Positions 59,887-63,480 of a stretch of 64,000 nucleotides of DNA are shown one piece after another (the first letter of the stretch is position 1; every line of letters begins with the position of its first letter). The position numbers and the translations under genes are program-made. Under the pieces are notes generated by a model that saw only the letters and a program-made list of their open reading frames with translations, had not been told where the DNA came from and made no database searches. The stretch comes from Caulobacter sp. UNC358MFTsu5.1 (GTDB lineage Bacteria; Pseudomonadota; Alphaproteobacteria; Caulobacterales; Caulobacteraceae). The DNA is taken from contig NZ_JONW01000006.1 of the NCBI RefSeq assembly GCF_000712075.1, positions 248,001 to 312,000 on the forward strand. Direction: 5' to 3'.

Positions 59887-60840
59887 ATGTCCGTGATTGT
59901 AAACGCCGACAATTTCGTCCGGGCCGAAACCGACAACTACATGCTCGGCTTCGTCAGGAACGGAGCGCTCGGGAAATTCTCCCACGTCAGGGAGCCGGCC
60001 GCGATCGACAAGCAGGATGTCGTCCGGCTCAATCGCGACACGCTGTACAGTCAGGGACTCTTCGACCTGGACGCCGGCGACGTGACGATCACCTTGCCCG
60101 ACGCCGGCGCGCGGTACATGGCGCTGCAGATCATCGACGAGGACCACTATACGCACGGCGTCGAGCACGCGCCGGCCCGCAGGGTCCTGACCAAGGCCGA
60201 CATCGGCACGCGATATGTCGCCGCGCTGGTGCGCACGTTGGTCGATCCGACCGACGACGCCGACGTGAAGGCGGTTCATCGGCTGCAGGACGCGGTGACC
60301 GTCACCCAGGCCGGGGTCGGAGCCGCCGATTTTCCCGATTGGGACCAGGCCAGCCTGACCCAGGTTCGCGACGCCCTGAAGGTGCTGGGCTCGGGGCTCT
60401 CGAACTTCGAGCACGCGTTCGGTTCGCGGACGGAGGTTGATCCGTTTCGCCGCCTGGTCGGCGCCGCCGCGGGCTGGGGCGGCAATCCGGACTCCGAGGC
60501 GATGTACATCGGCGGTCAACCGGAGGCCAACGACGGCCGGACCGTCCATCGGCTGACGGTCAAGGACGTGCCGGTCGACGGCTTCTGGTCGATCAGCATC
60601 TATAATGCGGCCGGCTATTTCGAGCCCAACAGCCGCGACAGCTACACCATCAACAGCATCACCGCCGACAAGGACGCCGACGGCTCCATCACGGTGCGGT
60701 TCGGGGGATGCGAGGGCGGTGGCCCCAACTGCCTCTCGGTTCCCCCCGGCTGGAACTACCTCGTGCGCCTCTATCGGCCGCGCGCGGAAGTGCGGGAGGG
60801 ACGATGGGTCTTTCCGAAGCCCGAGCCGGTGGCGGGATAA
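59887..60840 (+). CDS. DUF1254/DUF1214 protein
   Basis: 317 residues, no clear signal peptide. The DUF1254 half has VVRLNRDTLYSQGLFDLDAGDVTITLPDAGARYMALQIIDEDHYT. The DUF1214 half has VDGFWSISIYNAAGYFEPNSRDSYTINS and a GWNYLVRLYRPR end. These paired domains are common in bacteria and have no fixed biochemical role. The gene lies directly before a convergent acyl-CoA dehydrogenase gene with a gap of three bases. Confidence 0.88.
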   Translation: MSVIVNADNFVRAETDNYMLGFVRNGALGKFSHVREPAAIDKQDVVRLNRDTLYSQGLFDLDAGDVTITLPDAGARYMALQIIDEDHYTHGVEHAPARRVLTKADIGTRYVAALVRTLVDPTDDADVKAVHRLQDAVTVTQAGVGAADFPDWDQASLTQVRDALKVLGSGLSNFEHAFGSRTEVDPFRRLVGAAAGWGGNPDSEAMYIGGQPEANDGRTVHRLTVKDVPVDGFWSISIYNAAGYFEPNSRDSYTINSITADKDADGSITVRFGGCEGGGPNCLSVPPGWNYLVRLYRPRAEVREGRWVFPKPEPVAG

Positions 60841-62142: not shown

Positions 62143-62289
62143 GACCGCGTCTCCTCGAAGCTTCTGTGAGCCTTGAAAAGCAGCATGCGCCCCCCTTCGG
62201 GCGGACGACAACCGTGACGTGGGGGAACGCGCTTGGCGGGAGCCCGGGCCCCTGGTTAGGGTCGGCGCGGTCAGTATGGGGAGGCGTCC

Positions 62290-63480
62290 ATGATCACGAC
62301 GAGCAGTCGGCGGGCCATGCTGGCGGGACTGGGCGGGCTTGGCGCGACCAGCCTGGCCGGCTGCGTGACCCAGGGCGGAACCGCGAGCGGCCTGATCGCC
62401 CCGTCCCGGCCCGCCTTCGTCGTGCCGCCGCTGGCCCCGCTGCGGATGAGCGTCGACCGCATCACCAAGATCACCGTCTGCCTGCGCCCGTTCCGAGCCG
62501 CCGGACCCCGCCTCGACGTCGAGCAGGTCGCCGGAAAGCGGGTGGTGCACAACTACGGCCACGGCGGCAGCGGCTGGTCGCTGTCGTGGGGCTCCAGCAC
62601 CATCGCCGCCGGCAAGGCCCTGGAGGGCGGGACCAAGGAGGTCGCGGTGATCGGCTGCGGCGCCCTGGGCCTGACCTCGGCCCTGCTGCTGCAGCGGGCC
62701 GGCGCCAAGGTGACGATCTACGCCAAGGAGCGCACGCCCCAGACCCGCTCGTTCCGCGCCACCGGCACCTGGTCGCCGGACTCGCGCGTCGCCGACGCCG
62801 ACAAGGCAGCCCCCGGCTTCCCGGCCCTGTGGGAGGAGATGGCCCGCGCGTCCTACGCCGCCTACCAGACCCTTCTGGGCCTGCCGGGCGAGCCGGTGTC
62901 GTGGAGCGACCGCTACACGCTGCTCGGCGGCGGGGCCGGCGGTCCGCGCGGGCCCCGTCCCGCCGGGTCGGTCCATTTCGCCGAGTACGGCGAGCGGCTG
63001 CACGACATCGTGCCCGGCTTCCAGGACCTGCCGGCCGGGTCGCACCCGTTCCCGGTCGAGCGGGTCCGGCACGGGACCTCGATGCAGTTCAACGTCAGCG
63101 ACCTGGCCCACATGCTGACCAACGACTTCCTGGCCGAGGGCGGCCGGATCGTGGCCATGACCTTCGACACCCCCGCCGACCTGGCGCGGCTGAGCGAGCC
63201 GGTGGTGGTCAACTGCACCGGCTACGGCGCGCGGGCGCTGTGGAAGGACGAGACCATCACCCCGGTGCGCGGCCAGATCGCCTGGCTGGCCGCCCAGCCC
63301 GAGGTCCACTACGGGGTCTACTACAAGCACGTATCGGTGCTGCCGCGGCCGGACGGGATCGTCGTGCAGTATGTCGGCGACAGCGACATGTGGGGCTACG
63401 GGATCGACGTCGAGCGACCCGACCGGGCCGAGGCGGAGAACGCCGTGACGACCATCGCGAGCCTCTACGAAAGGGCGTGA
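62290..63480 (+). CDS. FAD amino-acid-oxidase-like protein, permuted motif order
   Basis: 396 residues. The N-terminus has a twin-Arg stretch (SSRRAMLAGLGGLGATSLAGC) ending in a lipobox-like LAGC, so a Tat-exported lipoprotein is likely. The D-amino-acid oxidase C-terminal hallmark, a Pro-Phe-Arg segment then HNYGHGGSGWSLSWG, is at 61-101, before the FAD Rossmann motif VAVIGCGALGLTSALLL at 118-134. The body then runs to NCTGYGARALW and TPVRGQIAWL and stops soon after VQYVGDSDMWGYG. Order of motifs is reversed relative to classical oxidases. Substrate unknown. Confidence 0.82.
   Translation: MITTSSRRAMLAGLGGLGATSLAGCVTQGGTASGLIAPSRPAFVVPPLAPLRMSVDRITKITVCLRPFRAAGPRLDVEQVAGKRVVHNYGHGGSGWSLSWGSSTIAAGKALEGGTKEVAVIGCGALGLTSALLLQRAGAKVTIYAKERTPQTRSFRATGTWSPDSRVADADKAAPGFPALWEEMARASYAAYQTLLGLPGEPVSWSDRYTLLGGGAGGPRGPRPAGSVHFAEYGERLHDIVPGFQDLPAGSHPFPVERVRHGTSMQFNVSDLAHMLTNDFLAEGGRIVAMTFDTPADLARLSEPVVVNCTGYGARALWKDETITPVRGQIAWLAAQPEVHYGVYYKHVSVLPRPDGIVVQYVGDSDMWGYGIDVERPDRAEAENAVTTIASLYERA

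Follow-up and report, generated by a model that had tools for sequence, protein, structure and literature searches.

The window, a 64,000 nt stretch of the forward strand of Caulobacter sp. UNC358MFTsu5.1 (contig NZ_JONW01000006.1, positions 248,001 to 312,000), carries near its end an ATG-initiated open reading frame of 396 amino acids, P0001 (62290–63480, + strand), with a Shine-Dalgarno-like GGGGAGG read upstream of the ATG (62278–62284, +). The Pfam model DAO (PF01266), for which the cut-off is 27.9 bits, covers residues 118–391 of the product with 82.2 bits (E 6.6e-23), and both Pfam and a PDB sequence search identify it as resembling D-amino acid oxidase (DAAO), a much studied flavoenzyme. 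Searching the source genome with P0001 (E 0.001) returned a single match, P0001 itself. An acyl-CoA dehydrogenase gene (Pfam) lies upstream on the opposite strand, beside which a DUF1254/DUF1214 protein is encoded at 59887–60837 (+) of the window.

Inspection of the P0001 sequence found the blocks of a DAAO in an unusual order. A leader (residues 1–25; 62290–62364, +), MITTSSRRAMLAGLGGLGATSLAGC, contains a twin Arg (R7 R8) and an LAGC lipobox (residues 22–25), and its assignment draws on the sequence, the AlphaFold2 pLDDT and a leader survey. It is followed by a segment (residues 56–110; 62455–62619, +) that corresponds to the C-terminal block of classical DAAOs in PDB alignments, the rotation test and the helix/strand comparison described below, and that contains LRPFR (residues 65–69, including Arg66; 62482–62496, +) and the HNYGHGGSGWSLSWG motif (residues 87–101; 62548–62592, +), whose YGHGGxG block occupies residues 89–95. 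In the model, DSSP assigns a helix at 99–110 and then a strand at 117–121, so that residues 111–116 (62620–62637, +) form the linker by which the helix that was formerly the last leads into the opening strand of the Rossmann part. The remainder, residues 117–394 (62638–63471, +), is the FAD/substrate core, which Pfam, the model and the rotation test match with the N-terminal and middle part of classical DAAOs; it includes the GxGxxG dinucleotide-binding motif (residues 122–127; 62653–62670, +) and Ser349 (63334–63336, +), placed by joint alignments in the column of human DAAO Tyr228. P0001 thus lacks the classical chain order, in which the Rossmann motif comes first and the YGHGG block last. 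An earlier note made from the DNA letters had placed an HNYGHGG-type block ahead of the Rossmann motif, behind a twin-Arg, LAGC-bearing leader, and had the C-terminus end where the Arg-rich segment would normally begin; the block order (residues 87–101 versus 122–127) and the leader are present as described, and the new C-terminus falls just before the place of the RPxR strand.

The swapped order was observed in the PDB sequence search, in which residues 59–107 of P0001 aligned gap-free with residues 321–369 of the fungal DAAO 7ct4 and residues 114–152 paired with its residues 22–60. Profiles of classical-order DAAOs were built from 9 and later 16 sequences collected in this analysis. Against the 16-DAAO profile, native P0001 gave two matches in swapped order, one of 96.2 bits (profile positions 3–237) and one of 52.7 bits (260–308), and these became one collinear match of 155.4 bits over positions 4–308 when the chain was rotated at the junction. 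As the scores of the native matches add up to 148.9 bits before any rotation, rotating mainly merges the matches and adds little score; a chance origin of the N-terminal block is implausible, since this block alone reaches 52.7 bits with the C-terminal end of the classical profile. A scan of rotation points in 3-residue steps against the 9-sequence profile placed the optimal new start at residues 111–114, at the junction that separates the final helix of the moved block from the opening strand of the Rossmann part.

The rotation test was also applied to 75 permuted proteins. These were selected by motif order, so that any statement of 75/75 permuted holds partly by construction, and they leave out loci duplicating others, the gene L113, which is annotated as two ORFs, and six further permuted relatives whose YGHGGxG block varies, namely L126 and L127 with TNYGHGG and L133, L142, L144 and L149 with Phe for Tyr. 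The median best match rose from 99.3 bits in native order to 153.1 after rotation and 157.3 after rotation and trimming. Rotation raised the best match by more than 20 bits in 62/75 untrimmed proteins (13/75 gained 20 bits or less) and in 74/75 once long tails were trimmed, L111 being the lone protein without a gain. An earlier version of the test, with the 9-sequence profile and 59 permuted proteins, had found no gain in 12/59.

Structure prediction, a check proposed in the earlier note, gave a DAAO-like fold with its elements in rotated order. The AlphaFold2 model of P0001, built on a 32-row alignment, has a mean pLDDT of 86.6 and a pTM of 0.83, with pLDDT below 50 at residues 1–42 and 215–218; the Rossmann start is modelled as a strand at 117–121 followed by a helix at 125–136. 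A Foldseek search of the PDB with this model ranked DAAO or D-aspartate oxidase (DASPO) chains at all of positions 1–33, ahead of other DAO families, counting 4qfc and 4qfd, which we take to be human DAAO, among the 33. The control, a model of the classical-order DAAO L135 from an Acidobacteriota genome (pLDDT 91.6, pTM 0.90), likewise had DAAO or DASPO chains at ranks 1–33. On 4qfd_A, the control reached a TMt of 0.88 at 2.3 Å and the permuted model a TMt of 0.65 at 4.3 Å. Because Foldseek aligns in chain order, some loss of score is expected for any block left without a place; the drop does not come from order alone, as the permuted model is also more diverged from 4qfd_A (21% identity versus 32% for the control). 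The TMt difference is consistent with a permutation and is no proof of it by itself.

A direct comparison of the two models was made at the level of secondary structure. Helix/strand agreement between P0001 and the control was 0.87 over 302 aligned residues, with 0.88 over 248 residues of the core and 0.80 over 54 residues of the moved block, the last value falling to 0.40–0.63 when the block was slid by 5–10 residues. By eye, the 22 post-leader elements of P0001 pair in rotated order with 22 of the 24 control elements, E109-112 and H256-260 of the control having no partner. The elements E58-69, E77-80, E83-87 and H99-110 of P0001 correspond to E263-273, E278-284, E287-293 and H299-316 at the classical end, and E117-121, H125-136 and those following correspond to E6-10, H14-25 and so on from the classical start. 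Together, the rotation test, the helix/strand order relative to the classical control model and the many homologues of the same order support the circular permutation proposed in the earlier note, as judged from sequence and predicted structure.

Two other explanations of the N-terminal block were weighed against these data. The block could be a separate fused domain (the tail of an adjacent DAAO gene, for instance) that acts in trans or by a domain swap between subunits. Duplication and truncation are regarded as a frequent route to circular permutations, which makes a fusion step likely at some point in the past of the gene; nevertheless, the block is modelled with confidence in the monomer (10-residue pLDDT means of 95–98 over residues 51–110), the linker between the blocks spans only about six residues, and GHGG occurs once in each of 59 proteins (L084 has a second NYGH string), all of which makes a separate domain a very unlikely account. 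The second explanation, that P0001 is a non-DAAO FAD oxidoreductase of the wider DAO superfamily, akin to glycine oxidase or D-amino acid dehydrogenase, with an HNYGHGG-like motif present by chance, is favoured by NCBIfam matches to the models for ThiO and D-amino acid dehydrogenase, which are weak and far below the cut-offs, and by the presence of YGHGGxG in some glycine oxidases, as stated in PMC9844085. Against it, the Foldseek ranks 1–33 are filled before other DAO families appear, the moved segment and the classical control have 39% identity over 54 aligned residues, and the rotated chain spans positions 4–308 of the classical DAAO profile, and we thus regard a chance resemblance of this kind as highly improbable. 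An intermediate of duplication was considered as well and rejected, as two GHGG blocks were found in 0/59 proteins and the candidate L153 is a classical DAAO with a different C-terminal part. In the L153 frame, of 733 residues, that other part makes up about 350 residues after the classical-order DAAO.

A survey of homologues, also called for in the earlier note, found the same permuted order in many of them. Among 61 genomes near the source genome, itself included, 26 had matches, with long permuted-protein matches at 21 places (counting the window itself and one cut by a contig end). A scan of named genomes gave 14 loci, namely five in Caulobacter, one in a Caulobacteraceae, those in Phenylobacterium, Reyranella, Vineibacter, Rhizomicrobium and Sphingomonas, and those in a Rhizobiales, an unplaced proteobacterium and an Acidobacteriaceae bacterium. 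Of 385 genomes of the class (E 1e-10), 17 matched, 14 of them over most of the model, the other three being a distant permuted protein (L079), a classical one (L080) and one with the Rossmann part only; of 398 genomes of the phylum, a sample overlapping that of the class, 20 had matches, each of which spanned most of the model, and one of the 20 lies outside the class. In the phylum of G797, the genome of the Acidobacteriaceae bacterium with L044, 28 of 247 genomes matched: 20 with permuted genes (19 in one piece, G994 in two), seven with classical ones, and G949 with a classical-order DAAO bearing a long C-terminal extension. These genome counts are lower bounds, as 4 or 7 candidates were scored per genome, and a few of the matches carry one stop, internal or terminal. 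One genome of the G797 phylum, G838, holds four permuted DAAO genes (L143, L144, L145 and L146).

Seven plasmid records matched as well, of which five (Niveispirillum, Kozakia, Nonomuraea, Bradyrhizobium and Rhizobium) have the permuted gene in one frame, one, from Mesorhizobium, has a permuted gene annotated as two ORFs, and one, from Streptomyces, has a classical gene. In the Mesorhizobium onobrychidis record (L113:2735-3798), the two ORFs overlap and part within the GxGxxG region. The product of the permuted gene is labelled 'FAD-dependent oxidoreductase' in L109, L110, L111 and L113, and the gene is unannotated in L108 and L112. No relatives were found in the phage collection. The permuted order is a trait of a family found in Alphaproteobacteria and Acidobacteriota, in one Nonomuraea and in a single proteobacterium that does not belong to the class. 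That P0001 is an ordinary gene whose two parts were swapped by an assembly or annotation artefact can hardly be true, since the same order appears in one open frame in many separately sequenced genomes, and this reading was rejected on the strength of these independent homologues.

The relationship between the two orders was inspected in quick trees, which are unrooted, contain no outgroup or bootstrap and gave long-branch warnings. In a tree of 59 permuted and 9 classical proteins, the orders were split by one branch with an SH-aLRT of 99, and in one of 74 permuted and 16 classical proteins by one branch with an SH-aLRT of 100, L079 having been dropped from the larger tree for its long branch. 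The classical chain order is presumably the ancestral one. The single-branch split agrees with one permutation event in these sequences and neither roots nor proves it.

The residues of the DAAO active site were then compared in joint alignments. Arg66 and Pro67 were kept in 75/75 permuted and 16/16 classical proteins, and the three Gly of GxGxxG in 75/75 permuted proteins. In the PDB sequence search, Arg290-Leu291 of human DAAO aligned with Arg74-Leu75 of P0001, which makes Arg66 the counterpart of human Arg283, in what we take to be the numbering of the carboxylate-binding Arg of RPxR. P0001 accordingly has, in Arg66, the carboxylate-binding Arg of the DAAO/DASPO family, and it has YGHGGxG, the conservation of which among the 75 follows from their selection on the motif. 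The column of Tyr228, presumably an active-site residue of human DAAO, is occupied by Ser349, so that P0001 lacks this Tyr. Over the 75 permuted proteins the column holds Tyr in 25, Ser in 22, Asn in 9, His in 5 and others, and over the classical proteins Tyr in 14/16; in the clade of P0001, Tyr was found in 0/42 proteins of the smaller set and in 2/45 of the larger tree (L123 and L124). With Ser at this position in P0001 and Tyr in 25/75 permuted proteins, D-amino acid oxidase activity is uncertain, and the alignment suggests that the substrate range of P0001 is probably changed because of the Ser. Tyr228 was not treated as strictly defining, since it varies among DAAOs and is not conserved in all, according to PMC9844085.

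To describe the N-termini, a home-made rule was applied to the 75 permuted proteins, and 67 were found to have a twin-Arg leader and 55 also a lipobox-like Cys, the rule missing at least L130 and L131. P0001 carries the signature of a Tat lipoprotein, SSRRAML...LAGC, with a twin Arg, a hydrophobic stretch and a lipobox Cys, and we infer its export from this leader alone. The eight proteins without a twin-Arg leader by the rule comprise L021, L096, L108, L109 and L110, which look cytosolic, L079, whose start is Sec-like, L071, which lies near a contig end, and L091, whose frame is cut by a stop. Export is therefore no necessary part of the permuted family. A first rule on 59 proteins had given 47 Tat-like leaders, 40 of them with a lipobox, and a stricter earlier rule, since replaced, had left 28/75 leaderless, several of which plainly contain RR.

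Compared with known enzymes, P0001 has in common with DAAO and D-aspartate oxidase (pig 1kif, human 2du8 and 4qfd, Rasamsonia 7ct4 and human DASPO 6rkf) the fold, GxGxxG, the RPxR Arg, YGHGGxG and the helix/strand order once rotated; it differs in the rotated chain, the Tat-type leader with a lipobox and Ser for Tyr228, and its own activity is only putative. Owing to the swapped order, P0001 is filed as a permuted variant rather than as an ordinary member of the DAAO/DASPO set. The bacterial classical-order DAAOs (L135 and others from Acidobacteriota, those of actinobacterial plasmids, and L027 from a genome of Caulobacter) are relatives with the same motif positions, but they begin with the Rossmann motif, have no leader in the 15 aligned and lie on the opposite side of one tree branch. 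Glycine oxidase ThiO and D-amino acid dehydrogenase (TIGR02352, NF001933), whose chain order is presumably classical, have the DAO superfamily FAD domain in common with P0001, which falls far below their cut-offs. P0001 is thus a real variant of a known enzyme fold, and the permutation belongs to a whole family rather than to the source genome alone. Just over ten bacterial DAAO genes, all from one bacterial group, had been identified before the survey for bacterial DAAOs in PMC9844085, in passages of which no mention of permutation was found. In PMC2916828, 'permuted' concerns other flavoproteins, and PMC12502724 counts a 'D-amino acid oxidase' among the proteins that Asaia releases. No naturally permuted D-amino acid oxidase was found among the titles and abstract openings of the literature matches listed, from a collection with few subscription papers and no bioRxiv preprints.

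Taken as a whole, we consider it very probable that P0001 is a natural circular permutant of the DAAO fold. The last three strands and the last helix of a classical DAAO, that is, the RPxR strand, the YGHGGxG loop and the final helix, would now lead the chain and run through the short linker directly into the first FAD-binding strand. P0001 would fold and bind FAD in the cytoplasm, would be exported in folded form by Tat and may be anchored as a lipoprotein through Cys25; it could then oxidise an amino-acid-like substrate, the carboxylate of which would be held by Arg66, and pass the electrons on, either to O2 or to cytochrome c in the periplasm. In Kozakia baliensis (L111:3914-5574), a small cytochrome c gene (Pfam) begins five bases past the permuted DAAO gene, which points, in this one genome, to a periplasmic electron carrier. 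A wider reading, which we offer tentatively and think rather unlikely to hold in full, is that the family represents an undescribed natural DAAO permutant of single origin in at least three bacterial phyla, in which the permutation freed the enzyme for export, as a membrane-tethered periplasmic amino-acid dehydrogenase or oxidase coupled to cytochrome c in some species (adjacent in Kozakia, L111). The permutation could have this effect because the classical N-terminus enters the buried FAD-binding strand, whereas the permuted one can carry a signal and a lipid anchor. Such a family, which goes under generic labels in four annotated records, would widen the known set of bacterial DAAOs, would offer a natural test of the tolerance of the DAAO fold for new termini, and points to a form of the enzyme that is tethered to the membrane in the periplasm; its members would be undervalued by searches that assume the normal motif order.

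Finally, the gene neighbourhoods were compared by eye in 17 loci of the P0001 clade and then in 23 of 32, the other nine giving no frame by the motif and length rule, and no partner gene or operon common to the clade was found in them. Close kin have their surroundings in common: P0001 and L031–L033 all have the acyl-CoA dehydrogenase gene upstream, and L034 and L035 have a common downstream gene, which we take to be CoA-transferase-like. A different arrangement was observed for the cytosolic-looking permuted DAAOs of the rhizobial plasmids (L109, L110 and the split L113) and of Nonomuraea (L108), which lie beside a thiamine-diphosphate enzyme gene. This gene follows the DAAO gene in the three rhizobial records, and a similar enzyme frame adjoins L108; in L109 and L110 it is preceded by an 'FAD-binding oxidoreductase' gene, which in L110 is of the berberine-bridge type (Pfam). 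The gene group of these four loci looks like a small biosynthetic cluster.
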